DNA of 25,277 nucleotides, taken from Acrasis kona (lineage: Eukaryota; Heterolobosea; Eutetramitea; Acrasida; Acrasidae). The notes beneath the pieces were generated by a model. That model was not told the origin of the DNA. It searched no databases and saw only the letters and a list, made by a program, of their open reading frames with translations. How positions within the stretch are numbered: the stretch's first letter is position 1; every line of letters starts with the position of its first letter. The translations under genes and the position numbers were made by a program. Shown in pieces: positions 2,710 to 23,848 of this stretch. The stretch lies in the NCBI GenBank assembly GCA_026419775.2, contig JAOPGA020000363.1, positions 1 to 25,277 of the forward strand, written 5' to 3'.

Positions 2710-3823
2710 TGTACCACACACATTAAATGGACAGACCACACATTCAGCTGTTACCATAACTGTACCTAAAGAAGATGAACATATACCTATATGCTCAACA
2801 ACTTCAAATGGTGACCATATTGAGGTATCAGTGTCTGTCATGCAGTTTGACCAATCCTCAACATCTGAACAAGAGTCAGGCAATGTTTTAGGTTCAAACA
2901 CAATTGGTACTCGTAAAGAAGAAAGGGATGCTGCTAAACAATTTCTAAAAAAAAGACCATACAATGCGGTCAATAACGAGAACAACTTTGTGAGTGAATT
3001 TTTAAAGTCACCAGAGAAGCGAAGCAAGAAGGAAAGTCCAGTTGACAAAAGTGAAAGCAAGAAAGAAGCGAAGTCAAAAGAAACTGTTGGTGTTTGGCTT
3101 AAACAAGCATACGTAGAGGACAAAAGTGGACCAAAATTTGGGAAAGAGAAGAAACATGCCAATTGTTGCTGTAATAATAGCATTCAAGAAATCTGCAAAG
3201 AACATGATGGATCCGCAGCTTTTCGACAAGGAAGACCAATCGTTCAATACAGTGACATTAAATGCCTCTCGGAAAAAACATGGGTAAATGATGCAATAAT
3301 TAACTTATATTTTCACATCAAGTTTGGAAGAAAGAACAACAAATTTAACGTATACTCTCCAAACAATGCAACCTTCTTTTACCCTACCTTTTGCAACAAA
3401 GAAAAACAAGAAAAGCTTGCAAACCGTTTACCTGATGCACTCGCAACACAGAAAGCTTTTGTGCTTCCAATTCATAACGTTGCTCATTGGACTTTAGCAA
3501 TTATCAATTTTGAGAAGAAGCGTTTCAAATACTACGATTCACGCCCTACAACACAAGGCAAAGAGTTTGCGTCTCAGGTTTTCAAAAACCTCAAAATGCT
3601 CATGAAAATGCATGCTTCTCACATCAAATCAAAATTGAATTGTGAAGAATGGCCAGAGAAGTTTTTTGACGAAATCCTTATTCAAAAAAACAGCAACGAT
3701 TGTGGAATATGTGTTATACATTTCGTAGAAATACTATACCCTGGTGTAGTTATGGAGAATTACCTTACATCGTATGCAAATATGAGAACAATTGTGAAAT
3801 GCTTTATACTCCAAAGACAATAA
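2710..3823 (+). CDS. Ulp1/SENP-like cysteine protease (C48), catalytic part
   Basis: Ulp1-family proteases mature ubiquitin-like proteins by cutting after a C-terminal Gly-Gly, or remove them from targets. The catalytic core is clear: His in AHWTLAII (codon 3485-3487), Asp in YYDSRP (3536-3538), the oxyanion Gln in IQKNSNDCG (3683-3685) and the nucleophile Cys (3701-3703). Spacing and order H-D-Q-C match the family. A typical entry helix motif (WVNDAIINLYF) precedes them. Before the domain is a Lys/Ser/Glu-rich linker with a possible nuclear signal (KRSKKE). The frame is open back to the right end of the inserted element, and its first in-frame ATG after the insertion is at 2840, so as it stands only a truncated protein could be made from this part. 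An AATAAA lies at 3868-3873. The oxygenase-like gene follows on the same strand. The protease domain itself shows no internal stop, so decay is limited to the insertion. Confidence 0.85.
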
Positions 3824-3867
3824 CCAAGTGTATCCTCCACTGTTTTGATAATTATCGGAATATGATC

Positions 3868-3873
3868 AATAAA
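3868..3873 (+). promoter_or_regulatory. polyadenylation signal AATAAA
   Basis: Exact AATAAA 45 nt after the protease stop codon. Confidence 0.5.
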
Positions 3874-4229
3874 TATTGACTGTCTTTACCTACTTAATGC
3901 CGTCTGATAAAAATATGCCTCCTCTGTTACTACTAGTGTTTCATCTCAGCAGAGGGGGGACTTACAGCATTACCTGGACGGCCCTTTCGAACTCTTCTAT
4001 TAACTTCCAACGCAACAGCTGCATCAGAGGTCAAGTCCTTCTCAATAGTCCTATCAATATTGGCCCCATTGAGACAATAAAGATAGGAATCACAACTACA
4101 GAGTATGCATACTTGGCTAGTGTATTTAAATTTTGTACTTCAGAAATCTGTTAATTGAAAAATACACATTATGGTTTTTGGTAAACCTAAATATTCAACA
4201 AACCACCAGACCAACACATCCTTCCAGAG
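3874..4229. other. intergenic, nothing firm
   Basis: This stretch separates the Ulp1 gene from the oxygenase-like gene. It has a ~90-residue open frame without an ATG at its start and without recognisable features, which I do not count as a gene. No repeats are evident. Confidence 0.5.
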
Positions 4230-4232
4230 TTG

Positions 4233-4505
4233 ATGGTAAATCATTTTAGAAAGAGAGCTCCCAGTAAAAAAGCATACAAAAAACAAAAAAGAATTTCGAA
4301 AGTTCAATGCGAGAATGAAGACATTAAATACATTACATGTCCACAAATCACACCCAAGAACATTAAAATTTTTTACCAACTGAGACGTGAATGTCCATTC
4401 CATGGTAAATTACCAAATGATGTATTTCCTCATGATACCAAATCTGGAGTAACATGTAAGTGTGGTTGTGATAAGTCGACATCAAATTTCAACGGATGGC
4501 CTTAA
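4233..4505 (+). CDS. possible 5' exon of the first oxygenase-like gene
   Basis: The frame starts at ATG 4233 and is strongly basic at its N-terminus (KRAPSKKAYKKQKR). It then has a Cys/His pattern (CPFHG .. CKCGC) that could bind a metal. It overlaps the start of the downstream oxygenase-like frame in another frame, so a short intron or a frameshift must join them if they are one protein. Several GT donors are present (for example GTAAAT at 4404 and GTAAGT at 4456), but I could not fix a junction that is clean in frame. The second oxygenase copy has no similar Cys-rich part, so this could also be a separate small protein. Confidence 0.35.
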   Translation: MVNHFRKRAPSKKAYKKQKRISKVQCENEDIKYITCPQITPKNIKIFYQLRRECPFHGKLPNDVFPHDTKSGVTCKCGCDKSTSNFNGWP

Positions 4506-5373
4506 TAAGAATACCGTTATAATTGTTGACAAAACTACTAGAGAGCCTTGCTACATTGTCCGATTTACAACATTTAAAGAGTTGGAGGAAAACCAAACAA
4601 AGTATAATGATATAGAGAGGCTGATGATGTACTTTGTTAAATCCAAACAGAATTTGAACGTCAACCAAAGCAATGGTGCCTACAAAAGAGCAGGCAGTAG
4701 GGGCACTTGCTACGCATACGGATATCGAGCAGCATATGAAAAAGGATTCTATTNAGGTAGATACGCACCAAAAGGAATTATTTATAAAAATACCAAACGT
4801 AGAGAAGTATGGGAAAAGGAACAAAGAAACCTTGTATGGGTGGAAGGAATTTATCGCAAGTATTTTGAGTCACTTGCCCCATCTATGTTCCAGTCAGTTG
4901 TTACGGATGCGAAAATCGCCAACGTTCCTTCTATATCGCAACTACAGTTTGGCAAGTGTAAAAGACCATTTGCATCAAATTTATTTGTCTCTTTTAATTA
5001 CGTTTCAGCACCTCACGTAGACAACGATAAACAAAAATGGGTGTTTGGAATTTATGCCCCAATATTTTGGAAAACTGGCAAATTAGCCTCCAGAGCACAG
5101 GGATTTGATGGAAAACATGGAGAGTTTTGTGTCTCATCATACAAAGTTGCATCATGTTTAAATGAATGTGATGGGATTATAGAAATGGCTTGGAGAGGGA
5201 AAGAGGATGTACATTTCACTATGCCTACAACATTAGGAATACGAAGCAAATATGCTCGAGTGGGATCAGATGTACAAATTAGTGAGAAATTGGTACAAAA
5301 AATCGCACGAATGTATCAATCCAAAAAGAAGACGAAGCTTGTAAAAGATCATAGTGGCATCTTTTTTTCCTGA
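4462..5373 (+). CDS. 2-oxoglutarate/Fe(II) oxygenase-like protein, copy 1
   Basis: This is clearly a paralogue of the minus-strand gene at 13614-14723. Shared landmarks include AGSRGTCYAYGYR / AGSIGECMAHGYR, the GRY segment, FASNLFVS, and GEFC near the centre. I propose the double-stranded beta-helix 2OG/Fe(II) fold: HVD (codons 5014-5022) as the first metal pair, a distal His at 5212-5214 and an Arg at 5257-5259 placed to bind 2-oxoglutarate, with a hydrophobic FGIYAP strand between. This order matches TET/JBP and related oxygenases. The family call rests on motifs only. The 5' end is uncertain: the frame has no early ATG and opens after a TAA near 4447, so an upstream exon is expected. N at 4754 lies in a codon TNA that aligns with Leu in copy 2. 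Polyadenylation signal at 5502-5507. Confidence 0.6.
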   Translation: MVVISRHQISTDGLNKNTVIIVDKTTREPCYIVRFTTFKELEENQTKYNDIERLMMYFVKSKQNLNVNQSNGAYKRAGSRGTCYAYGYRAAYEKGFYXGRYAPKGIIYKNTKRREVWEKEQRNLVWVEGIYRKYFESLAPSMFQSVVTDAKIANVPSISQLQFGKCKRPFASNLFVSFNYVSAPHVDNDKQKWVFGIYAPIFWKTGKLASRAQGFDGKHGEFCVSSYKVASCLNECDGIIEMAWRGKEDVHFTMPTTLGIRSKYARVGSDVQISEKLVQKIARMYQSKKKTKLVKDHSGIFFS

Positions 5374-7633: not shown

Positions 7634-8141
7634 TACAACCGATCCCCACTACCGATCCTGTCAACTACTACTTTCCGGAATTACAACAAAGTAATGATAC
7701 CATCGGCCTAACAAACAATAAAAAGAGCAACAAGAAGAACAACAAAAAGTAGAGCAACAACAATTCTATAAAAAGGATACAATATCAGACAATGAGGGTA
7801 AAGAAGATAATGTTGTTAATGAAAAAGAGGAGATAAATAAGGAGAGAATGAAGTAGATACAAGGTTAACGAGCAAGACTGTTCCAATAGTCTTATTTTTG
7901 AAAGTATCACCATATCTTTAAATAATGCTAATGAGAAAGTTGTTTATAAGGATAAAGTATCAAAAAAAGGAAGGAAAGCATGGATGATAATGAGAAAAAT
8001 GTACCTCCCAAAAAGAATATATTACTTTTTAAAGCTAAAGAAGAAGTTGTAATAGACAATAAATCCTTAACTCAACACAAAGGGACTTCAAGTCAAAGTG
8101 GATGCTTTGAGTCAAGAGGTTCTAACTTTGAGTCAATATAA
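7592..8141 (+). pseudogene. decayed Lys/Asn/Glu-rich gene
   Basis: Successive coding-like segments in changing frames run on the plus strand: ATG 7615 to TAG 7752 (acidic start, then a Lys/Asn run); a segment to TAG near 7856 (..DNEGKEDNVVNEKEE..); a segment around 7860-7975; and ATG 7980 to TAA 8141. Each is low-complexity and charged, and one-base shifts connect them, which suggests one gene broken by several frameshifts. The last segment runs into the ~200-bp repeat array, so its tail is repeat-derived. No domain is recognisable. Confidence 0.4.
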
Positions 8142-10300
8142 GTCGATTTTAAAATTCTAGATACATATATTTGAGCTTCTTAAGCATGCTATATCATAAA
8201 AAAATCAAATTTACACAAGTTTTGACAGAAATTTATTTTTGATTTTTTTCTAGGGCAATATGGGTCAAAATTCTAAATATACATTTCGGGAGTTTTCGTC
8301 CCTTGCTTTACAACTTTACCTTTTATTAAGTGAAAGTCGATTCTTAAATTCCCGATACGAATATTTATGCTTCCTAAGCATGATAGCTCAAGAAACAATC
8401 AAAAATTGTTAAGCTTGGGTTTGAGTCGTAATTAATTTTTAATTTTTTCTGAAGTAATATAGGTAATGATGCTCAAATATACGTATCGGGGGTTCGTCCT
8501 TTGCTTTTCAACTTCATCTTTAGGTCAGTGGGAGTTGATTATTAAATTCACGATACGAATATTTGAGCTTCCTAAGTATAATGGCTCAGGAAAAAATCAA
8601 AAATCGTTAAGCTTGGGTTTGGGTCGAGATTGATTTTTGATTTTTTCCTGGAGTAATATAGTTTGAAATGCTCGAATATACGTAATTGGAGTTTTTGTCC
8701 CCAGGTTTTCAACTTCACCTTTGAGTCAGTAAGAGTTAATTCTTAAATTCCCGATACGTATATTTGAGCTTACAAAGCATAATGGCTCAAGAAGAAATCA
8801 AAAGTCAAAAAATTTGGGTTTGTGTCAAAACCAAATTTTAATTTCTTTCCTGGGTTATATAATGTAAAACACCCAAATATACGTATTCGGAGTTTTCGAG
8901 CTTGGCTTTGCAACTTCACCCTTTGAGTCGGCGAAAGTCGTTTCATAAATTCCCGATACGTATATTTGAGCTTCCTAAGTATAATGGCTCAGGAAAAAAT
9001 CAAAAATCGTTAAGCTTGGGTTTGGGTCGAGATTTGATTTTTGATTTTTTTCTGGAGTAATATAGGTTAGAACGCTCAAATATACGTATCTGGAATTTTT
9101 TTTCTCCGGCTTTTCAACTTTACCTTTGAGCCAGCGAAAGTCGATGCTTAAATTCCCGATACGTATATTTGAGCTTCTCAAGCATAATGGCTCAGAAAAA
9201 AAAATCAAAAATCTACAAGCTTGGGTTTGAGTCGAATTTTGATTTTGATATTATCTTGATTTATAACATATAAAAGATCAAATTGTCATATCTACAAACC
9301 CAATCCCAAGTTTTTTGATTTTTAATTTTTTCATATGCTAGTACGTCTAGAAATCTCAAAAATTCGTATCGGGAATTTTAAAAGTGACCTTTGTTAACTT
9401 ATGCTGATTATAGGTATCGGGAGTATTTGTACTAGGTATCGGGAGTTTATTCAACTTTCCCTTTAAGTCAGTAAGAGTCACTTTTAAAACTCCCGATACG
9501 AATATTTGAGCTCCCTAAGCATAATGGCTCATGAAAAAATCAAAAATCAAAAAAACTTGTGTTTGGATTTTTAATTTATTATCTCGGTGAAATATAATTC
9601 GATATGCTCGAAAATAAGTATTCGTAGTTTTCGACCCTCGCAATTTTAACTTCACTTTAGAGTCAGTGAAAATCGATTCTAAAATTCCCGATACGAATAT
9701 TTAAGCTTCCTAAGCACAATGGCTCGAGAAAAAAAAATCAAAATACAAAAAACTTAAATTTATGTCGAATTTTTCTTTATTTTTTCTGGATTTAATATAG
9801 GTTAAAACGCTTAAATATAGGTATCTGGAATTTCCGTCCCCAGCTTTTCAACTTCACCTTTTAGTCAGTAAGAGTAACTTTTAAAATTTCCGATACGAAT
9901 ATTTAAGCTTCCTAGGCATAACAGCTCAAGAAAAATTAAAAAATCAAAAAGTTTAGGTTTGCCTTTAAACCGTTTATTTATATTTTTGTGAAATAATATA
10001 GGTCAAAAATCAAAAATCAAAAAGTTTGGGTTTGTGTCAAAATCAAATTTTTTCTTGAGAGAATATAAGTTAAGATGCTCAAATTTTCGTATCAAGAGTT
10101 TCCGTTACTGAGTTTTCAACTTCGTCTTTGAGTCAACAGTCGATTCTTAAACTCCCAATACGAACATCTGAGCATTCTAAGGGATCTAGCTTTAGAAAAA
10201 AATCAAACATTGTCAAGCTTGGATTTGGGTTTGGGTTTGGAATATCTAGGTACAAAAACTCCCGATACCTATATTCGAGCATTCTGATCTAAATTACTCC
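8120..10300. repeat. degenerate ~200-bp tandem array of hairpin-forming units
   Basis: The core word CGATACG recurs at 8353, 8551, 8752, 8954, 9157, 9494, 9689 and 9891, giving a period of 195-203 bp with one 337-bp irregularity; a weaker copy lies near 10156. Each unit has two nested inverted pairs. In the unit at 8956 the outer arms are 8956-8971 and 9074-9089 (16 bp perfect) and the inner arms 8991-9008 and 9036-9053 (nearly perfect), leaving a loop of ~27 nt around AAGCTTGGGTTTGGG. There are no genes; open frames here are repeat artefacts. It could be a foldback-element end, satellite DNA or a source of hairpin RNA. Confidence 0.85.
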
Positions 10301-10803: not shown

Positions 10804-11936
10804 TGAAAGTTAATTTACCTGGCCTACAATTCTGTTATAAAGCTAATTTACCAAAATTAACTATTATTATCGGTGGGGATGGTTTTCAAAAAACTAAATA
10901 TAGCAAAGAGAACAATGTTATAGGGATTTATATGAAGATATGCAACTTTAAAAAGGAATATTTTTCAAAAGCAACAAACAACTTTGTACTGCAGTTAGAG
11001 GAGTTTGAAAAAAATGGACTTATTCTTAATGGCCAACTCTATGCTGTGGATGCTCATTTTGTTGGAGATATGAAATTCCTTCAAGCGACACTAGGTGTCT
11101 CTTCTAATAAAGATAAGCACTGGTGTATTCGTTGTGATCATAAAGGCAAAGAATTATTTGATAACAAGGAACGACATCCTCAAACAATTGCTTTTATGTT
11201 GGAGAAGTTTTTATTAGAGAACAAGCACAAACCAGCAGCTTACCAAAACCATCTACCTATATCCAAATTCTTCTCTACGTTAAAATATCATTTTGATCCC
11301 CTTTACTTCAGTTTGTCAATGTTAAAGTCCTTGTTGAAGTTTATTGTTAGCAGAGGTTCTAAAATTAATGAAACTAAAGATTTTCTACAACAAAAGCAGT
11401 ATCTGGATGAAGTTATTAACGAGACAACATCAGATGTTAGAAGAAAGGAACTCTATTTGATTCTCAAGATCACAAAATCTAAAAAAGACAGTGCTAAATT
11501 AAACGCTGCCATCAGTATGTTACAGTCAATTGAAGTAAAACTCCAGGCTGATCCTTTTCTCTCTGATGTTGCATTAAAAACTAAAGAGATGGATAACATC
11601 TTGGTAACTATTGAAGCACTTTTTAAAAGCTGTCATATCAATATTAGATTAATACGAGATACGCAAAATCTCAAATTCTCAGTTATTGGTTCTCAAATAC
11701 GCCCAGTTTTTCATTTAATTTTAAATAATAAAGATTTACAAATGTGGCTTGGACTAACAGATCAGGATTTGAGTGTTATAAATAATATGTACCGATTGAT
11801 CCGACTTTTCTCATACATGGTTGTCGAAAATAAAGATCTGGAGTGGTGTAGACTAAGTGCATCAAGCGTTATATCTGCCTATGTTCTAAACGGAGAAATT
11901 TTTGGTTGCAATTACTGGTTTTACAAGGTTTATTGA
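10803..11936 (+). CDS. transposase-like protein, truncated (RNase H-like core suspected)
   Basis: A 377-residue frame with two acidic motifs spaced like a DDE core: LTIIIGGDGF (Asp codon 10878-10880) and HFVGDMKFLQATLG (Asp codon 11067-11069), the latter followed by a Cys pair (WCIRC). The arrangement D .. GDxKxL..LG .. CxxC is found in transposase-like proteins common in invertebrate and fungal genomes, in the CACTA/KDZ-like group. The C-terminal half is helical. I see no clear catalytic Glu, and the frame ends exactly where the ACTGGT-rich hairpin region begins, so the 3' part appears lost or replaced. It is not a close relative of the larger transposase at 14.9-18.3 kb. Confidence 0.5.
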   Translation: MKVNLPGLQFCYKANLPKLTIIIGGDGFQKTKYSKENNVIGIYMKICNFKKEYFSKATNNFVLQLEEFEKNGLILNGQLYAVDAHFVGDMKFLQATLGVSSNKDKHWCIRCDHKGKELFDNKERHPQTIAFMLEKFLLENKHKPAAYQNHLPISKFFSTLKYHFDPLYFSLSMLKSLLKFIVSRGSKINETKDFLQQKQYLDEVINETTSDVRRKELYLILKITKSKKDSAKLNAAISMLQSIEVKLQADPFLSDVALKTKEMDNILVTIEALFKSCHINIRLIRDTQNLKFSVIGSQIRPVFHLILNNKDLQMWLGLTDQDLSVINNMYRLIRLFSYMVVENKDLEWCRLSASSVISAYVLNGEIFGCNYWFYKVY

Positions 11937-12103
11937 AATTCTGGTTGCCAATACCAGAATATTTTAAATCCAAAAAGTGAAAATTACCGGTAGCAAAACC
12001 AGTAGATACAACCGCATCCATCAGCGACCAATATTGGTCCCTTATACCAGTTATTCAAACTAGTTGATGCAACCAGTTCCATCACCAGGGCATTTAAACT
12101 AGT
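11914..12103. repeat. nested hairpins with ACTGGT/ACCAGT motifs
   Basis: ACTGGTTTT (11914-11922) pairs with AAAACCAGT (11995-12003). Inside lies a second hairpin, ATTCTGGT (11938-11945) with ACCAGAAT (11953-11960). A perfect 14-bp palindrome, GACCAATATTGGTC, follows at 12026-12039, and more ACCAGT and AAACTAGTT copies run to about 12103. This looks like a subterminal repeat region of a CACTA-like element, or a small inserted hairpin element that truncated the upstream frame. Confidence 0.5.
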
Positions 12104-12170
12104 TTGCTTGTTAGAAAAATTATACATGAAGGATGCATTCAATTCACTCAAATGTTGACATAAATGTATT

Positions 12171-12176
12171 TTTATT
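12171..12176 (-). promoter_or_regulatory. AATAAA overlapping the BRCT gene stop
   Basis: On the minus strand the last codon and stop read GAATAAAA, so the polyadenylation signal contains the TAA stop. Confidence 0.5.
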
Positions 12177-13387
12177 CGTTGTCAGAACCAGAGTCATCTG
12201 AACCAGAGCTGCTATCCGAACCGGATGCGTTGTCAGCTTCACTTTCCAAACAAACGTTGGCTTGCTTCTTCTTCAGCCGTTGTGCCTTCATGAACTCTTC
12301 AAATTCGCTTGGATCAATATCTTCTCTCTCGGCTATTGATTGCAGGGTATCGGACTTCTTTGTCCTTTTGCTCTTTGTAGTTTTGAGTGTATCTATAGAG
12401 TTTAGGAACAATAAAAGCAAGTACAAACCTGTTATAAGCCTCTGCATGCTCTTATCAAATGGCTTTTCAGATGAGTTACCATTCATCACCAAATGTGCAA
12501 GGTCTCTACGTAATTGAGCAGTAACTTGTTTTCTGAGTGTGTCACACCCCACTACAACACTTGTTGATACTCCTGAAGTCTCTATGGCATCCATGTTGGC
12601 TTGGACAGTTGATGAAACTGCACAATTCACCTTCTTGACCATTGATTCACACAACCCAAATACACCACCCCACTCATTTAAGAAATGGAGAACACCAATA
12701 GCAATCTTTGGTATACTTCGAGTTGTGTGGTCCTCTAGCATCTTGCTGAACTCCTCTCTTGTTAATATAAGGCCTACAGGTAAGTTACGTAACTACGATT
12801 TGTATTGTTACCTTTTGGACCTGCTACATCAACCGCTGACCTGTTGTGCTCATTGATCAAGTCCTGAGCATGTTTGTTCTTCTTTGACTGCTCAACAGCA
12901 AATTCTAAACGGGACTCTGCCTCAGTCTTCCTTTTCTTCTTCTTTGGTTGCTCTTCATCCTTGTTTGATTCATCTGCAATATAAAACATAATTTGGTACT
13001 TGGCTTACCTAGTTTAGGTTCATAATCTTTTGAACCAGGCAATATCTTCTTGTTGTGGATTGAATTGATAACCCAGTTATAATTTCTAAATGATATCCCA
13101 AACTCTAAGGCTTTGAACCATCTACTAGACTTGCCTGATTCAAATACAAAAAAATCTATATTGTTAGATAGTTTACCTACAATAGTTCCACCAGATGTAA
13201 GAATAGAGTCTTTGGCATTATCTAACTGATCTACATCTCCAATATCTAAATAAAAGTTATATTTGGAAAAGAGTGCTCCTGGTGTTGTTGACTTATCTCT
13301 AGATGCAGGCTCTAGACTCTCGCTGCTGCTCTGCTTGCTGCTTGCTTTTTTAGAGGTTGTTTTCTTCGTACTCTTTCTTGGTGGCAT
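12172..13387 (-). CDS. BRCT-domain protein, four exons with 35-38 bp introns
   Basis: Exons on the minus strand: 13387-13009, 12973-12812, 12773-12429, 12392-12172. All junctions are GT-AG and in phase 1; together they give 1,107 bp (368 aa). Start ATG (MPPRKSTKK). The N-terminus is Lys/Ser-rich. Residues ~40-120 read as a BRCT domain: YNFYLDIGD, SGGTIVGKL with the Gly-Gly turn, and the conserved Trp in NYNWVINSI. After it come a nuclear-signal-like KKKKRKTE, a helical middle, and an acidic Ser/Asp tail. BRCT domains bind phosphopeptides or DNA ends in repair and chromatin complexes. The third intron is 36 bp and also reads through in frame as a hydrophobic stretch (LYLLLLFL), which I take as intron. 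AATAAA overlaps the stop. Same strand as the adjacent oxygenase gene. A role in repair of transposition breaks is inference. Confidence 0.75.
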
Positions 13388-13612
13388 GTGTTTTATAATT
13401 TTAAAATTTACAGTGGGCCTTATTTATAACTTTAGGGTGAGCAGCCTATTACAATAATATTTTAAAAGCAAAAACAACACTCAAGTGAAGACCAATCAAT
13501 GTATGTAACTGAAAGAAACTGTAGGTACATGATTTATTGAAGACAACTACGAAAGATATGGTTGAGTGGAATAAATATACATTTAAAAAGAAGCATATAG
13601 TACATTAAATAT
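13388..13612. promoter_or_regulatory. intergenic spacer, probable BRCT gene promoter
   Basis: A 225-bp AT-rich gap between the end of the oxygenase gene and the start of the BRCT gene, both minus strand. It must hold the oxygenase 3' end and the BRCT promoter. On the minus strand AAATATTATT and TTATAAATAAGG (around 13416-13460) are TATA-like. No other signal is evident. Confidence 0.35.
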
Positions 13613-13618
13613 TTTATT
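13613..13618 (-). promoter_or_regulatory. AATAAA overlapping the copy-2 oxygenase stop
   Basis: The gene ends GAATAAAAT on the minus strand, so the signal overlaps the TAA stop, as in its two neighbours. Confidence 0.5.
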
Positions 13619-14723
13619 CAAAGTATGTTTTGCATTTATGAGATTTGTTGATCTTTGTTACAGTAACCTTTTTGTTTCTTTTATAAATCACATCTGCAAT
13701 CTTTGGTAAATCCTTTACTTTCTCTTCTGGATAAGGTTCCATCTCAAGTTTTATCAAAGCATCAACCAAGTTTTGACTAATTTGTGTTGATGTACCAATA
13801 CGTGTGAAATATGGAGAACATATCCCAGGTAATGTCAAGTGATAGTCTGTATTACTCCTCCAGGCCATTTCCACAATTCCATCACAATCATTTAAACATG
13901 CTGCTATACGGTACTCTGATATGCAAAATTCACCTCCTGATCCATTGAATTTATGGTGGGTTCTTGTTGCTAACTCTCCTGTTTGTTTAATTACAGGCAT
14001 AAAGATTCCAAACGACCAAGGCTGAAAGTCACTCTCAACATGCTCAGCAGAAACATATCCTTTTGATACAAATAAATTAGATGCAAAGTACTCTGACCTT
14101 TCGTTGAAGCAAAGTTGAGAAAATGATGGAACTTCCGCATCTTTTGCTGCTTCAACCATTGTGGCAAATAAATGTGGGGCAAGCAATGCAAAGCGCTTTT
14201 TATAAAAACTCTCAATGTCAGATAATTTTTCTTGGGCTCTGTTCCATTCTTCAAGCTTTGCATCATTTTTCTGTACTGAATGTGTCAGCATATATCGCCC
14301 AAGTGTCCAGCCTTTATCGTATCCGCGGCGGTAACCATGTGCCATGCACTCTCCAATGCTACCAGCAGCCTTGTGTGGACCGTTTACAGTGATGCGGTTG
14401 GATTTTGAGAACTCTTGAATTAAAAACTTGCTGACCATTTCAAACTCCTCGTAAAGGCCTAATGTATTTTTAATATCAGAGAACTCAGTGAATTTTGCAA
14501 CAAAAACTGGTTTTTTACTAACTTTATCAGTAATCAGGTTGAGGTTTTCCTTTAAAAAGTCCCAATTCTTAAATTGAGGGTTGGATTGAATGTTCGATGG
14601 AAGAGGGCCAGAGTCACCAAATACCCTAGAACCGCGTGTTCGAATGTACTCCTTCCTATTCATCCCATCTTCATTTGGAATAACTGAATCTTTTCGCTCG
14701 TGCAAGTTTATTCCGCTTCTCAT
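13614..14723 (-). CDS. 2-oxoglutarate/Fe(II) oxygenase-like protein, copy 2
   Basis: Intact single-exon gene of 369 aa from the first in-frame ATG at 14723; the frame is open further upstream but without an ATG. It aligns along most of its length with copy 1 at 4462-5373. Proposed active-site residues: HVE (His codon 14042-14040, Glu 14036-14034), distal His (13841-13839) in DYHLTLP, and Arg (13802-13800) in FTRIGTSTQ. The first metal pair is HxE instead of the HxD in copy 1; both occur in 2OG/Fe(II) oxygenases. Strand motifs FGIFMP and GGEFCISEYRIA lie between. The N-terminal ~75 residues are basic and unlike copy 1. TET/JBP-type enzymes oxidise methylated bases, and relatives hydroxylate proteins; the substrate here is unknown. 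Transcribed divergently from the transposase, with the BRCT gene downstream on the same strand. Confidence 0.62.
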   Translation of the reverse strand: MRSGINLHERKDSVIPNEDGMNRKEYIRTRGSRVFGDSGPLPSNIQSNPQFKNWDFLKENLNLITDKVSKKPVFVAKFTEFSDIKNTLGLYEEFEMVSKFLIQEFSKSNRITVNGPHKAAGSIGECMAHGYRRGYDKGWTLGRYMLTHSVQKNDAKLEEWNRAQEKLSDIESFYKKRFALLAPHLFATMVEAAKDAEVPSFSQLCFNERSEYFASNLFVSKGYVSAEHVESDFQPWSFGIFMPVIKQTGELATRTHHKFNGSGGEFCISEYRIAACLNDCDGIVEMAWRSNTDYHLTLPGICSPYFTRIGTSTQISQNLVDALIKLEMEPYPEEKVKDLPKIADVIYKRNKKVTVTKINKSHKCKTYFE

Positions 14724-14869
14724 TGATATGTGCCTTTGTTCGAGTTTTTCGAGATTCGACACTCTTTTTATTACGATACTTCATTAAACTGGCAGCCAAT
14801 TGCACAACAATCAAAGCACGATGTACACGTACACCACAGTTTAGAAGTCAAATAAAAAATATTTTTGTA
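14724..14869. promoter_or_regulatory. short bidirectional promoter region
   Basis: 146 bp separate the ATG of the minus-strand oxygenase gene from the first in-frame ATG of the plus-strand transposase gene. AT-rich TATA-like stretches face both ways (AAATAAAAAATATT just before the transposase ATG; GTAATAAAAAG on the other strand). The two genes are probably co-regulated. Confidence 0.5.
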
Positions 14870-17800
14870 ATGGAACTCATCTTAGCATTTTTGGCGGTTC
14901 TTATATTCACCCTCGTAGCATTGAATTTCAAATACCAATGTAGCCGAGGTCCATACTTTTATTGTTATAGAGTACAAAGAAGGAGAAGAGCAGTATTGAG
15001 GAGATTATTAATAGCATTTAAAATTTATCTCACAAGGGCTTCCCCTACCAGCAAGTTTCACAACACTACTGTGCATAATTGTAAACAGTGTGTAAGTAAT
15101 AACCAGCATCAAGATAACCAACTACCGGATGAGAAAATCCAGATAATAATATCAGCACCAGATTATACATTTGCCGTATCCATTTTCCCAACAACCGTAG
15201 CATCCGTTCTTTATGCAAATATTTCAGAAATAATTGGCATCAACATTGAGGATTATTACTTAACGTTCCACGGGAGAGCAATACAACCAGGAAAGCACCT
15301 CAATGAATACAACATTAATAATAATTCTACATTGGATGTAAACATACGTATACTTGGAGGAGCCAAAAAGAGAAGGTTAGAAGAAAGTAATCATAATGCG
15401 GAAGTAGTACAGACAATAGTAGAAGATATGCAAAAGTGGTCCGAAGAAGTAACCGAAATCATTGACAAGAAAAATTGGATTCAGAATGAAAGATTTGAAT
15501 ATGCGAAGGAGGTAATTAAAGAGGCTGGCTTCCGATTTTTAACTCCCTTCAATGTTCTTGAATGTAAAAGAGATGATTTGAAATCAAACAAAAAATGCGG
15601 TGGTCTGATTGTAAAAATTGATGGAGATACTCAATATATATGTATCAAATGCAAATTACCAACAAATATCTGCAACATGTGCAAAGCATTTCATCATTAC
15701 AACGAATCTAATTTAAAACGACACATGGATAATACCTTTCACAGTGGGAAATACAACAATATTAATATCACATTACCATTAGACATCATTAAATTAGATG
15801 ATGAAGGTCTTATTACAAGCTTTATAGTTATTTCTCTTATCAATGGAAGTAATACTTATTTTTTCCAAAAAGAAACTAGAGTAGAGCAACCACCAATAAA
15901 TGTAAATACTGTTATTTCTGCATCTAAAAAATGCAAATCAGATTACGGCAAGTTATATACCATGTTATCACATCCCTCAATAGATAAGTTTGATGACTTG
16001 TCTCATGATATTTACAAAAATGCAATCTCTGCTGCTAAATCTAGTATTTATACAAGAGTAAACCCCCCAAGGCAAATAGGATTTGAACCATATAAAAGTA
16101 TCTTAGAGGGTAAAAGCCATAGATACTTTCGTGAGGGTAATTTATCACATGATGGTGCTGTGGACTTGAAAATATTTCTTGCTGCATCTGGTGTAACAAA
16201 TGGCCAGGATGAAAAAAAGATTCAGAAGAAGCAATTAACGAAACAATTGAAGAAAATGAATCAGCAAATCAAAGAGAAAAAGAAGGTTATTAAACAGAAA
16301 CAATTTAGTAGTTTTAGTTCCAGCACAGATACACTACAGCTAGAAATAGAAACATTGAAGCTAGAGTTAATTGAGCAAAAGATTCAAGTAAATGAGCTGA
16401 AGTTATCTAGTTTATCTGCAACTGACTTGATTAAAGACCCTCGTCATTATACTGGACTTGAGTCTCATCCTTCTTTTCCAAGTATTTCTATTCAAGAGTA
16501 TGTAACTGAGAATAACAATAAAGTAATGCACCTGCCACTAGGCCCAAAGATTGCTCGTATCTTCAACAATGAAGATGAAGTAAAATATCTTCGATTCATT
16601 CCATCAAATACCAAAAATATTGGTCATGTTGTAGAGACTCAATATTATAAGGACTTGTTAAATCAACACTGCTCTAATGATGGAGCACTTCTCCTCCTAG
16701 TAAACTGGTTCTCTGATCATTTTAATAAGTCTCGAAATGCAGGAAAATCTAGAAAAGCATATGGAGGATATTATGACCTATGCAATAGTAGTTACAAATA
16801 TAGAAGCAAGTTAAAAAGTAAAATCTTGTACAGTGTTGGTGATAAAGACCTTACTTTACATGAATTTGTTTTAGGAGCAGTTCGTGATTTGCGAGATTTA
16901 TATAAGGGAATTATTGTATGGCACTCGTTATTGAAGAAATATGTTTTAGTTCGACCAATATTACATCTTGTTATAGCTGATCAGCCAGAACAAGATGAGG
17001 CTTGTGGTACTCAGGGTTATACTGCAACAACTGGATGCTGTCATTGCTATCGTGACCGTAGCAAATATTATGATATAGATCAAGTAGATGAGATGCGCAC
17101 AGTTGAGAAAACTGCCTCACAGATAAAGATTTTAAATAGTATAACTGATAGGATGATTTATAAGAGCATTTTAAAAACAGTTTCAATTCGGTGTCGATTT
17201 AATAGTTTCTGGCTATTGTCAACAGCTCCTTTCAACTTTGATATTCACCTTTGTAGTCCAGGTGATATATTCCACATTGAAGTTCTTGGGAATTTCTCAA
17301 AGCATCACATTGAGCTATTGGTTAATAACAAGGTTATAGATGAGGATACAGTTGATAAACAAATGAAGAAGTTGAAATTCAAGTCAACAATGAAATTAAA
17401 TTTATTTTCTGAGAGAGGCAATTGAGATGGAGATGACTGGTCAGATTTTATTTGCTTGTCTCCGTTAATTTTTGAATCAATACTTTCTGAGAGTCACTTT
17501 AAGTGTCTAATGGATCATCTTCTTTATTATCGGATATTATATAATTCTATTCTGAGTAAGGAAGATATTGAATTTGCTCGAACTGTACACAGACGTTATG
17601 CAACACAGTACATAAAGTTATTTGGGAAGGATGCTGCCAACCACATCAAGTTTCATACTATCCAACATATGTTTAATGAAGCTATCAAGTTTGGCCCACC
17701 ATGTACTTACCATACAAAGCCATTTGAGCATTATCATGTCCCTATGAAGAAATTGGCAGGTCAGTCAACTTCTACAGGGGTAGAGTATGCCACAAAAGTC

Positions 17801-18310
17801 ACTGAGATATTGGACACTCTCCGATATAATTATCCTGAAACAGTATATCGAACAAAAGACAATCAATTGACAAGAATGACCAATAACTACAAGATTGACC
17901 AATGCAACCCATTGCAACTACCAAATGATAATAACAAAAAATACGAGGAATTTGCAAAGAATAAAAAATGGATCAAACATGATGATCAACTCCAGCAAGT
18001 TTACTCACCTTCTTTTATGAAGCGTGACAGAACACATTTTAAATTAAAAGATAACGTGTTATTTGAAAGTAGTGAAAACTCTTTTGGTGTTGTCAAATGT
18101 ATTGAATTCTGGAAATTTAAATCAGGTACTGTAGTTCCTGTGGTCTTTATTAATCAATTTGAATGTCTTGGTGTTAAATCAGCAAATATGTGTCCAGTTG
18201 TAAATACAGCTAATATTATAAAGCACAACTGTTGCGTTCATGCAGATGATATTGCACAAATTCTAATAGCTGAAAACGGAGGCAAGGAGTATGTTTGTAT
18301 GTTTTACTAA
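14870..18310 (+). CDS. CACTA/Plavaka-like transposase with N-terminal TM and ubiquitin-like domain, one in-frame TGA
   Basis: Start: first in-frame ATG, 14870. Residues 2-20 are hydrophobic (signal-anchor-like), followed by an Arg-rich patch. Residues 90-164 form a 75-residue ubiquitin-like domain: QII start, FHGRAIQPGKHLNEYNI and STL near the end, finishing ILGG; then AKKRR, a likely nuclear signal. Residues ~243-291 carry a Cys/His zinc cluster, including a C2H2-like CNMC..H..H. A coiled coil covers ~447-517. The transposase core follows: Asp616 (WFSDHFN, codon 16715), Asp704 (IADQPEQDEACG, codon 16979) with a CHC pair after it, and Glu804 (FHIEVLG, codon 17279), then a HIKFHTIQH/FEHYHVP C-terminal part, as in CACTA-group transposases. 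A TGA at 17423-17425 interrupts an otherwise continuous frame between GN and DGDDW, where the family usually has Trp. AATAAA (18309-18314) overlaps the final TAA. Confidence 0.75.
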
Positions 18311-18314
18311 TAAA
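18309..18314 (+). promoter_or_regulatory. AATAAA overlapping the transposase stop
   Basis: The gene ends TACTAATAAATT, so the polyadenylation signal begins inside the TAA stop. Confidence 0.5.
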
Positions 18315-18426
18315 TTAATTAATTGAATTTACTACTTTATTTTAATCATGTTTCCTGCTCATGGTAATAAATAGGATTATGGATGTGGTTATTACTAGTT
18401 GAAACCACTGATTTTAATATTCGGTA

Positions 18427-18454
18427 GATTTCACCAATTATTTTTGGTGAAATC
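18427..18454. terminator. 9-bp hairpin downstream of the transposase
   Basis: GATTTCACC (18427-18435) and GGTGAAATC (18446-18454) are perfect inverted arms around a 10-nt AT loop, ~115 bp after the stop. It may be an element subterminal motif or a 3'-end structure. Confidence 0.35.
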
Positions 18455-18805
18455 AACCAACCAATTTTTTCTCCGTTTAGAATACCAAAAATTACAAATA
18501 ACAATTCATAATTTTCTGCTAGGGACTATACAACCTCAGAACTCACTTTTTTTTATGTTTACTGACCCTTCTAAGTGTCTCTAACAAGAATATCCTCTTT
18601 TTTCTTGGTTCCGGCAACGTATAATGCACTTTTTCGCGAGAGTAAAGTGTGTTTTTTTTGTTTGTTGTGTACTTAGCCCGCGTCAATTATTTCCGCACCT
18701 TCCGACGCTTTTAATGACAATATTTTGTTGACAATTGCGAAGAACACAGAAGAATACCGAAGAACACTGTGTTTTTATTTAAACAGGAGAAATTTGTTTA
18801 ATCGG

Positions 18806-18887
18806 GAGTTGACTATTTAATTGATTTAATCTGCTCAAACACATTAAATCGTTTAAATTCTACAAGTCTAATTTAAATAGTCAACTC
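18806..18887. repeat. 15-bp perfect inverted repeat with 52-bp spacer
   Basis: GAGTTGACTATTTAA at 18806-18820 and its exact reverse complement at 18873-18887. A direct repeat, TTTAAATTCTACAAGTC, starts at 18852 and again near 18899. It lies between the transposase and the serine protease gene. The rest of 18455-18805 holds no gene; it includes a CACTTT..AAAGTG pair near 18629-18650 and a GAAGAACAC direct repeat near 18740-18766. Confidence 0.5.
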
Positions 18888-19050
18888 GTGTTCCTTCATT
18901 TAAATTCTACAAGTCAATTGAAATTTCAAAATCACGTTATTTTCTAAATTTCGGTTGAAACCTGAAAAACTGTGCCACAGCCTATTACAATAAACTTTTC
19001 TTACGAGACGGGCAAAAGAGCTTCAAGTTGATTTCACAAAAAAATACACT

Positions 19051-20139
19051 TTAATTAAACAAGATTTTGTACAAATTGTTGGCATAATTCTTAGTCTCTT
19101 CGGAAAAAGTAGAAAAGTAATCTACGAGGTTGTTTTTGTTCTGAGCGACGAAATAGGTATCATTCTGGATTGCAAGAGCATACTCAACAGCGAACTCAGG
19201 ACGGTTGACTGAAATGAAAACATTCTTGTTAATTCCCATGCTCCCCCCGATGTGAATTCCACTAAAGTACTGATAAGTCATTGGCTTTGAAAGAATTACC
19301 ACTAATCCGCCAGAGAATCCTTTTAATGTGGGACAGCGATGTAACATGAATCCTTCTAGTGTCTGTTCACAAGACCCGCTGCTAATTGTCTTCCTTTGGA
19401 ATGAGTCCATCCTCTCCTTCAAGTCCTCAAATAGCTCATCTGAGTTCTCACTTGGATGATCGTTTACGAAAGTGGTTTTATCAACAGAACCTGGAGTGCC
19501 AATGACCACGCAGTTTGTCTCTTCCGGAATGTGTTTTGGAAGAAGGAACGTAGGAGACACCTCCCCATTTTTGAAGCGAAGAAACCTGAAGTCGTTCCTC
19601 CTGAATGTGCTGTTGAGTTCGTATGGAGTACTCTTAAATTCATCTAGGGAGTCAACTACTTTAGGTAGCAGTTCTAACTCAAGCATGTTTTCTATCCCAA
19701 CCTCCTCCTGAAACCTAGTATAAGGATCAAAAGTAATAAAAATTCTATGCAAAGTAAATGTAACTTCATCTTTCTCACGAATTGCGTCAACATTATGGTC
19801 CGCTGTGACAATAATGTTGTTTGTGACTGCAAAGGCGGATCCTACAAAGTATTGAATACCTCCTTTTGACGTATTGTACTCCACAAAGATTCTTCCAACA
19901 CCTTCTGAACTTGACTCTATCATAGAACGGACGTTGGCATTGTGAATGGCGTGTTTTTTTTGTAGCTTGTTACGGCAGTTTAGAAGTAGGATATCTCCAA
20001 CAACCTGTCCAAAGTCAGTAACGAAGACAATCTCCTGAATACTTCCACTAGAAAGCTTGTCTGCTTGGGGCACCATGTACTTGACACAATCTAGATCAAA
20101 TCCGCTCATTTTTGAATTGAAGTTCTTATTTGAGTTCAT
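19051..20139 (-). CDS. trypsin-like serine protease
   Basis: Intact single-exon gene of 362 aa with ATG start. The chymotrypsin-fold triad is visible: His115 in VTADHNV (codon 19797-19795), Asp183 in RRNDFRFLRF (19593-19591) and Ser276 in GFSGGLVV (19314-19312). The usual context before His is TAAH; TADH is a variant. Asp sits in a run that reads like the D-x-A-x-L motif of S1 proteases. FVGSAF before the His matches the GSGF motif of trypsin-like peptidases of the S1/HtrA type. There is no signal peptide and no PDZ domain, so it is likely intracellular. The ~90 residues before the His are not recognised. No AATAAA lies close to the stop. It could be a host gene or an element/virus-derived protease; neighbours do not decide. 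Confidence 0.75.
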   Translation of the reverse strand: MNSNKNFNSKMSGFDLDCVKYMVPQADKLSSGSIQEIVFVTDFGQVVGDILLLNCRNKLQKKHAIHNANVRSMIESSSEGVGRIFVEYNTSKGGIQYFVGSAFAVTNNIIVTADHNVDAIREKDEVTFTLHRIFITFDPYTRFQEEVGIENMLELELLPKVVDSLDEFKSTPYELNSTFRRNDFRFLRFKNGEVSPTFLLPKHIPEETNCVVIGTPGSVDKTTFVNDHPSENSDELFEDLKERMDSFQRKTISSGSCEQTLEGFMLHRCPTLKGFSGGLVVILSKPMTYQYFSGIHIGGSMGINKNVFISVNRPEFAVEYALAIQNDTYFVAQNKNNLVDYFSTFSEETKNYANNLYKILFN

Positions 20140-20524: not shown

Positions 20525-21166
20525 ATGTCTCCAAAGTTGTTTATTGGAATTCACGCCAATGTTACGGTAATTGCGTAGACCAAATCGATTAAGGGTCACA
20601 TCAACGACGTTAAAGCAACACAACTCCACCATCAACCGCCGCGATACATACTACAGCATGCTTCCATTTTAGTAATGGTAGATGACTTCCTTGTTAGCGG
20701 AAAGAGCATTGAAGAGGTTATCAAAATACGCAATTTACTAATTCATAACATTGAGACCCTATTCAGGCTTCCAGTAAATTATAAAAAGTCTAAAATGGAG
20801 CCAATGCAGCACGTAGACTATTTAATGTATCATTTAGACTTTGAACAGCATCAAGTACTAACAAAAGAGAGCAACCTAACAAAGGTTAACGCACTTCTTG
20901 AAGGCCTTCAAGCTGGAGAATATGATAACGGTAAAGTAATGTCAATTGTTGGATCAATCACATCAAATGTTCCAACGTTTGAGTTGAACCAATTGTTGAG
21001 GCCTGTTCGTCAAAAGTTATATTATGTAAAGGATGGATATGATATCCCAGTAAAGTTATGCGAAGATGATATTAGTTTAATGAAGGAAGTACATTCAAGA
21101 TGTCATCAACCTCATCAATTGAAAGTTGGACGTATTAAAACCTTTAAGAAGAAATACATTGTATGA
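20525..21166 (+). pseudogene. reverse transcriptase relic, DIRS-like
   Basis: The catalytic box reads ILVMVDDFLVSG (VDD at 20678-20686), with Met in place of the usual Tyr of YxDD. Then come a helical segment, VNYKKSKMEP, and a YL..LDF element like the YLG..LD block after the active site. Later VGSITSNVP and RPVRQKL match the thumb/connection order seen in DIRS-type retroelements. The frame continues upstream of the active site to about 20575, where a TAG interrupts it; reading before that is uncertain. RNase H and recombinase regions are missing. It is a truncated, inactive copy. LTR-type Ty3/Gypsy is a less likely alternative. Confidence 0.65.
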
Positions 21167-23038: not shown

Positions 23039-23848
23039 TCAGGACTGGATAATTTTCAGATATGCGCAGTAATCACAATCCTCACAACCGTTAAGTTCCT
23101 TATCATACTCCCTCACTCTATTATATACTCTTCTAGTATACATGAAAGCGGCTACACCTCCGTTATATTGAGATGTTTTTGTAAATGTATATCTGGCCCC
23201 ACCTCCAGAATATAATCCATTCTTGTCCATAGCCGCGTTCCTCTTGTCTATAATTTTATCTCCATTGTCGTCCATGACGTAATAATCTGCATATATGAAT
23301 CCCGACTCTGGATAATTACGATAGGATGATATTAGGGTAAACAAAAAGTCGCTAGTGCAGTTGTTGTCGGAGCTTATCCAAGTTAAAAGAGAACCTGTGC
23401 TCTTCTCGAACCCTGTATTCAAAGCGGTTGGGAGTCATTGATTCTTTGAATGTGAGAATATTTGAATGCGCGCATCATCTAGTGTTCTGAGGTAAGATAT
23501 TGTATCATCAGTCGAAGAATCGTCGATTATGATCAACTCATAGTTTTTGTAAGTTTGTGCGAGCACACTGTTTATTGTTTGTTCAATGTATTTCATCCCA
23601 TTGTACGTCGGAAGAATGATGCTAACTAGTGGCTCTCCACCAAGTATTGAATCGTCTATAGCCATTGATTCATACTCGCCCTCGATAAGTTGAAAGTTTA
23701 ATGGTTGAAGTGATTCATCGTCATCGGTGAATGCGACAGACTCCTTTGTTTCTGCTTCACATAGACTTGGAATAGGGGCTTTTTGGTACAGCACGAACTG
23801 TGTAAAAAAATAAATCAATGATATGATCAAAAGCCACCCAAGCTTCAT
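23039..23848 (-). pseudogene. family 2 glycosyltransferase, interrupted by one TGA
   Basis: The ATG start (MKLGWLLIISLIYFF) gives a hydrophobic signal-anchor, then a ~65-residue acidic stem, then a GT-A glycosyltransferase domain: VSIILPTYNG, SVLAQTYKNYELIIIDD with SSTDDT, then after the stop LNTGFEKSTG, a WISSDNN acidic motif, and GCEDCDYCAYL near the end. GT2 enzymes move sugars from nucleotide donors; with this topology it would face the secretory lumen. One in-frame TGA at 23437-23435 splits it; the frame continues unchanged on both sides, and the family often has Gly at that place (NQG.P.ALNTG), so a GGA-to-TGA change is plausible. The frame ends early after the EDxDY motif, so the C-terminus may also be lost. 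The GT2 class resembles bacterial or viral members; transfer is possible but unproven. Confidence 0.7.

Follow-up and report, generated by a model that had tools for sequence, protein, structure and literature searches.

The element and its gene content

The window analysed here is the whole 25,277-nt stretch of Acrasis kona contig JAOPGA020000363.1 (assembly GCA_026419775.2), designated contig C178 below. It contains a DNA transposon in which a transposase gene with a ubiquitin-like domain (UBL) is accompanied by a TET/JBP-like dioxygenase gene and an accessory gene with a BRCT domain (Table 1). The limits of the element are established, the left end firmly. Its 25-nt terminal inverted repeats are 88% complementary and stand first in a list of 85 inverted repeats between 11 and 19.1 kb; among the 25 of these 85 that were listed, one pair is longer (28 nt, 71%). 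Contigs C834 and C837 follow the left flank at 99% identity precisely as far as position 11883 and then diverge, in the manner of an empty site. Related end motifs are found in paralogous copies, TTCTAAT at the 5′-end of L009, L010 and L016 (ATCTAAT in L013) and ATTAGAA at the 3′-end of L014, L015, L016 and L017. A target duplication of 2–5 bp is a feature of the CMCT group. The copy on contig C350 (L016) has TG on both sides and the flanks of the C845 copy (L014) do not match each other, while the right flank of the window copy is unlike the empty-site sequence, so that a duplication is not demonstrable there. A stretch of contig C247 (L051) is 98% identical to window positions 18078–18452, in the 3′ part of the element, evidence that the window copy recently had a close relative.

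Table 1. Features of the transposon in the window, with positions in the 25,277-nt stretch.
Feature	Position	Strand	Basis
Whole transposon, 6599 bp	11884..18482		Terminal inverted repeats, left-junction comparison, related end motifs
Left terminal inverted repeat, begins TTCTAAACGGAG	11884..11908	+	Inverted-repeat search, empty-site comparison
Accessory gene, second part, motif IPKIAIGVLHFLNEWGG	12172..12741	-	Similar ORF in 8 of 8 paralogous loci, by eye
Accessory gene, BRCT part	12905..13387	-	PF16589, 30.5 bits (cut-off 27.3)
TET/JBP-like 2OG-Fe(II) dioxygenase gene	13614..14762	-	PF20515, 133.4 bits (cut-off 27); head to head with transposase
UBL-transposase ORF, 851 aa	14870..17425	+	Similar proteins in paralogues
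Hydrophobic helix, residues 2-20, then RRRR	14873..14929	+	Mean Kyte-Doolittle 2.44 over 19 residues
Ubiquitin-like domain	15137..15361	+	Residues 90-164, PF00240 over cut-off, fold by model
Gly-Gly	15356..15361	+	Equivalent to ubiquitin G75-G76; invariant in six lineages
KKRR, NLS-like	15365..15376	+	Basic run (minimum KR) no more than 8 residues from GG, all six lineages
Cys/His region, putatively zinc-binding: C232, C243, C258, C261, C268, C271, H285, H291	15563..15742	+	Invariant columns of alignment A2
D616, proposed first catalytic Asp	16715..16717	+	Invariant in A2; assigned visually by comparison with distant copies
D704, proposed second catalytic Asp, then C723-x2-C726	16979..16981	+	Invariant in A2
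HxxxH and proposed catalytic Glu (PFE), 3′ of the TGA	17654..17728	+	Similar motifs in L009, L022, L023, L025
Right terminal inverted repeat, ends CTCCGTTTAGAA	18458..18482	-	Inverted-repeat search

The BRCT part and the second part are probably one accessory gene. Among the eight paralogous loci checked for it by eye (L009, L010, L011, L012, L013, L014, L016 and L019), the BRCT-part ORF lies beside the transposase in six, is a fragment in L013 and is absent from L014. The BRCT domain scores over the cut-off in the window and L011 and below it in L009. The second part, which carries the conserved pattern IP.IA.GVLHF.N.WGG, gave no Pfam match at E ≤ 1. A TET/JBP-like gene between the accessory gene and the transposase was seen in the window copy only. 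By eye, no TET gene stands at that place in the eight paralogous loci, which leaves TET as a constant part of the UBL-transposon family unsupported. PF20515 and transposase matches occur on the same contig just at C178 (the window), C845 (about 15 kb apart) and C665 (about 4–5 kb apart, on the C-terminal side of the transposase). In L013, the UBL-transposase is separated from the accessory gene by an ORF (3645–4283, +) that resembles a tyrosine recombinase, judged by eye from its motif.

Outside the element, units of about 201 bp are repeated in tandem in two arrays of the window (8126–9950; 5.6 and 2.5 copies). To the right of the element, positions 18525–19268 belong to another repeat family, 92–100% identical to pieces on contigs C211, C325, C990 and C763. 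An ORF at 20675–21166 (+) looks by eye like a reverse transcriptase fragment (no Pfam match at E ≤ 1), and two adjoining ORFs at 23039–23848 (-) resemble, also by eye, one broken family-2 glycosyltransferase gene.

A ubiquitin-like domain ahead of a Plavaka-like transposase

The 75-residue UBL of the window protein has the C-terminal end RILGG, which is directly followed by AKKRR and then by the transposase body. A preliminary description of this DNA had proposed a domain of this length, ending in LGG and fused ahead of a transposase. That observation is confirmed and is stronger than first described: the ubiquitin profile PF00240 scores 27.4 and 32.3 bits (cut-off 25.4), and a structure model, compared by VIA-align and forming the basis of the ubiquitin-fold call, supports the beta-grasp fold that had been expected of it.

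Downstream, the transposase frame of the window copy is interrupted by a premature TGA at 17423, ahead of the proposed catalytic Glu, and is open again to 18310 (ORF 17456–18310). The putative catalytic residues were placed by eye with the help of A2, a four-sequence alignment. PF18759 scores 23.6 bits for the window protein, 25.6 or 26.3 bits when neighbours are included and 28.7 bits for the C268 copy (cut-off 26.3). Between the second D and the E, C(2)C and H(3–4)H motifs can be seen by eye in L009 and, past the TGA, in the window (C723-x2-C726 and HxxxH); HxxxH is also present in L022, L023 and L025. The loci L022–L026 are more distant transposases, with 24–29% identity and no UBL match, and L022, L023 and L025 open with stretches that look zinc-finger-like by eye.

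The PF18759 match, borderline for the window protein, the C(2)C and H(3)H motifs and the TET/JBP-like gene inside the element are all shared with Plavaka DNA transposons, some members of which are TET-positive according to the accessible text of Kojima 2025 (PMC12730594). The published Plavaka ends are TGT..ACA (type A) or CATCA..TGATG (type B), and the ends of the window element, TTCTAA...TTAGAA, are unlike both (PMC12730594). The UBL and the BRCT accessory gene are further differences from Plavaka as described there, and the word "ubiquitin" occurs 0 times in the main text of that paper.

Conservation of the Gly-Gly tail

The host genome surveyed comprises 37.35 Mb in 1021 contigs, and all the conservation evidence comes from this one genome. 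The window protein matches at least 58 stretches of it, and at 14 of the loci found the sequence extends as far as the UBL tail. Because many of these are near-identical copies, the fairer count is that of six lineages distinguished by sequence: the window (C178); C268/C77/C543; C829/C815/C835; C845/C834/C48/C147; C610/C350; and C327. RxxGG is in frame in 13 of the 14 loci, and a basic stretch follows it in 12. A frameshift lies just ahead of GG in C147 and right after GGGNK in C835, and in both the lost tail is readable in another frame.

The UBLs of the six lineages are only 24–43% identical to each other and 21–28% identical to host ubiquitin, and the consensus R-[LIV]-x-G-G plus basic stretch is common to them all. 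In ubiquitin numbering, none of R72, G75 and G76 varies, position 73 is occupied by L, I or V throughout and position 36 by I or V; the position of residue 71 is mostly hydrophobic and R74 is not kept. Position 44 is T or S (I44 in none) and position 42 is Y (R42 in none) in all six, K63 is kept in none, and K48 and V70 are kept in one each. No lineage has a proline immediately after GG, and the spacing from GG to the basic run differs by up to three residues between lineages. Both the Gly-Gly and the NLS-like basic stretch of the preliminary description are thus retained by homologous transposases in six of six lineages of the same genome, and this conservation of Gly-Gly makes the case much stronger than that of a one-off fusion.

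Codons in the tail differ synonymously among the five lineages compared (Gly GGA/GGC/GGG/GGT; Arg AGA/CGA/CGT). In alignment A1, five of the seven invariant columns fall inside the nine-column tail, with a hypergeometric P of about 6e-5 that is to be read in the light of a stretch picked post hoc and of related rows (ten, with C327 left out). Among close pairs, the UBL of L013/L016 has a dN of 0.046 and a dS of 0.24, which fits purifying selection at small counts; the corresponding values are 0.011 and 0.017 for L009/L019 and 0.005 and 0.019 for L011/L012. The pair L014/L018 shows the opposite trend (dN 0.016, dS 0), with three amino-acid changes and no silent one. Between lineages, three pairs gave UBL dN values of 0.5–0.6 and dS values of 1.0–1.4, near saturation.

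The hydrophobic N-terminus noted in the preliminary description is present in the window protein, but it is less general than the tail. A strong 19-residue hydrophobic start (mean 2.4–2.6) followed by RRRR or RRKR is found in just three of the six lineages, including the window. It is borderline in the C845 lineage (mean 1.4–1.6), and C350 has no hydrophobic helix in frame; in C610 and C327 the start codon is not fixed, and the value of 0.11 for the C543 copy is taken from an inner Met, its first Met not being in place. Basic residues flanking a membrane helix stay cytosolic (the positive-inside rule), and those after the helix would therefore leave the UBL facing the cytosol.

Likeness to host ubiquitin-eS31 and to known fusions

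The host ubiquitin-eS31 precursor reads RLRGGAKKRK where the window protein reads RILGGAKKRR. For a genomic control, 31 polyubiquitin or ubiquitin-fusion rows and six transposon rows were subtracted from 69 ubiquitin-family matches, and 20 of the remaining 32 UBL matches were read as genomic open frames, introns disregarded. Eleven of the 20 continue in frame for at least 23 residues, none of them with GG; five have GG, every one stopping at most nine residues later, like free modifiers; and four stop without GG. Judged from these open frames, GG marks protein ends among the other UBLs, and the transposase combines GG with a long extension, as host ubiquitin-eS31 does.

A profile of the transposon UBLs and tail scores up to 46.5 bits on ubiquitin-eS31 fusions, where the match extends through the basic tail, and 33–37 bits on single mature or redesigned ubiquitin. 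It scores 49.4 bits on a UBL that lacks a basic tail, the C-terminal one of ISG15; the profile alone therefore does not single out eS31, and the likeness is one of layout more than of score. The eS31 zinc ribbon, PF01599, has no match in the window protein (E ≤ 1) or at the same place in the genome search, and hhalign of the downstream region against host eS31 alone gave a probability of 1.5%. Derivation of the downstream cysteine region from that zinc ribbon is thus unsupported by either comparison.

The ubiquitin-eS31 (RPS27A) and ubiquitin-eL40 precursors share with the transposase an N-terminal ubiquitin fold and R-L-x-G-G, and eS31 also an A-K-K-R basic tail, through which sequence matches as well as the profile match extend, but their passenger is a ribosomal protein instead of a transposase, and the transposon UBL has diverged from ubiquitin and has no detected zinc ribbon after it. 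FUBI-eS30 (FAU), cut by USP36 and USP16, is a parallel in its divergent UBL, altered contact patches and removable N-terminal fusion, although FAU is a host ribosomal gene and not mobile (available text of PMC8354635 and PMC10611586). Crinkler-type proteins also have an N-terminal UBL header and some transposon-derived parts; their headers differ in being SSK1/Mcs4-related, with an LXLFLAK motif, a proposed role in effector delivery and no GG-basic tail described in the accessible part of the source (PMC5289972).

Searches of a protein collection found no relatives, either with a one-sequence query (7627 candidates, E ≤ 0.001) or with an alignment of four rows, for which 8000 candidates were scored at E ≤ 0.01, and none of 62 pattern matches in viral contigs was confirmed as a relative. 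This absence is weak evidence because both collections seem poor in eukaryotes. The literature covered, consisting of titles and abstract openings with few subscription papers, contained no mention of a transposase whose UBL ends in Gly-Gly.

A probable processed precursor and its candidate protease

On balance, we think it probable, though by no means assured, that the UBL-transposase is a processed precursor, cut after Gly-Gly by a host deubiquitinase that frees the transposase. The precursor would be laid out as a membrane-like helix (where present), the UBL and Gly-Gly, then a basic nuclear signal, a zinc-binding-like region and a Plavaka-like DDE transposase. The protease would most likely be of the USP type, as matures ubiquitin-eS31 and FUBI-eS30. 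Its cut would yield a transposase beginning at its own basic stretch and leave the N-terminal piece behind. The analysis establishes the domain, its modelled fold, the persistence of R72-x-x-G75-G76 with its basic tail in six lineages of one genome, the element limits and the gene content; the cut, the enzyme, the role of the basic stretch as an NLS and the benefit of the fusion are inferred. That benefit may lie in folding and yield, a role studied for ubiquitin-eL40 (available text of PMC6721733), or in hold-and-release at a membrane. A latent, membrane-tethered transposase, in which the helix would hold the protein in the cytosol and the UBL would serve as a release catch, with host deubiquitinases switching the release and freeing the nuclear signal, is a speculative and rather unlikely extension.

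According to the accessible part of PMC10611586, pockets of USP36 take Leu71 and Leu73 of ubiquitin, while its glutamates hold Arg72 and Arg74. R72, the hydrophobic residue 73 and I/V36 of the transposon UBL are features that USP36 contacts in ubiquitin (PMC10611586). With R74 not kept and the I44 patch, a USP contact, lost, an ordinary USP might bind poorly; FUBI is likewise a divergent UBL, and it is matured by USP enzymes (PMC8354635; PMC10611586, as available).

The preliminary description had pointed to a Ulp1 protein of the same element as a candidate for the cleavage. The window does contain a Ulp1 gene (2831–3823, +; PF02902, 57.3 bits), and Ulp1-family sequence was found in 29 stretches across the genome. 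This gene stands 8 kb beyond the limits set by the inverted repeats, however, and among the Ulp1-bearing contigs just the window's has a transposase match. Its position and this pattern of co-occurrence rule out Ulp1 as a part of the UBL-transposon and leave the earlier link unsupported. On contigs C186, C273 and C542, Ulp1 matches lie about 2 kb from TET matches, again without a UBL-transposase. The tail itself is of the ubiquitin type, R-[LIV]-x-G-G, and not TGG, with which the host genes L067 and L069, presumably SUMO-like, end. Cleavage of the precursor by a transposon-encoded Ulp1 is accordingly highly improbable, and both the location of the Ulp1 gene and the type of tail favour a host deubiquitinase instead. 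A second TET-like gene (4462–5373, +), which shares 42% identity with its counterpart inside the element, adjoins the Ulp1 gene, and this Ulp1 and TET pair is probably a separate type of mobile element.

Alternative readings of the domain

The UBL could instead stay uncut as a fixed interaction domain that binds partners such as the proteasome, a segregase or chromatin, with RxxGG-KKR kept for structure or as a nuclear signal. Many embedded UBLs are known to stay uncut, and the T/S at position 44 and Y at 42 common to the six lineages suggest a special binding face. This reading has to contend with the genomic control, in which the 11 embedded UBLs read all lack GG while the transposon UBLs have GG and R72 among their best-kept residues, and with the variable spacing before the basic run, which argues against a single rigid tail motif; we regard it as fairly improbable, though deserving of attention. 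The freed UBL might, as the preliminary description suggested, itself be conjugated, in which case the transposon would make its own modifier. R72 and GG, which are needed for ubiquitin activation, are invariant, but the other ubiquitin surfaces are not kept, and in three lineages the freed piece would bear a membrane-like helix and basic stretch, making such a modifier very unlikely.

A captured remnant of host ubiquitin-eS31, drifting without function, would account for the AKKR tail and for the exclusively amino-acid-changing differences of L014/L018. It would also be compatible with the lack of a PF00240 match (E ≤ 0.01) on six contigs with 24–29% identical transposases, some of them near-duplicates. 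Against drift stand the same few residues kept in six divergent lineages, under synonymous codon change in the five compared, the excess of dS over dN in L013/L016 and the undetected eS31 zinc ribbon, and we find this reading scarcely credible.

Implications

Ubiquitin-type precursor fusions are already known for ribosomal proteins. If the UBL-transposase is a precursor cut by a host deubiquitinase, as we favour, a DNA transposase with this design would mean that transposition can be regulated in a new way and that host deubiquitinases are put to a new use, and the model predicts the cut site to a single residue. Should the latent membrane-tethered form also prove true, the transposon would in effect be sensing the state of its host's ubiquitin system.
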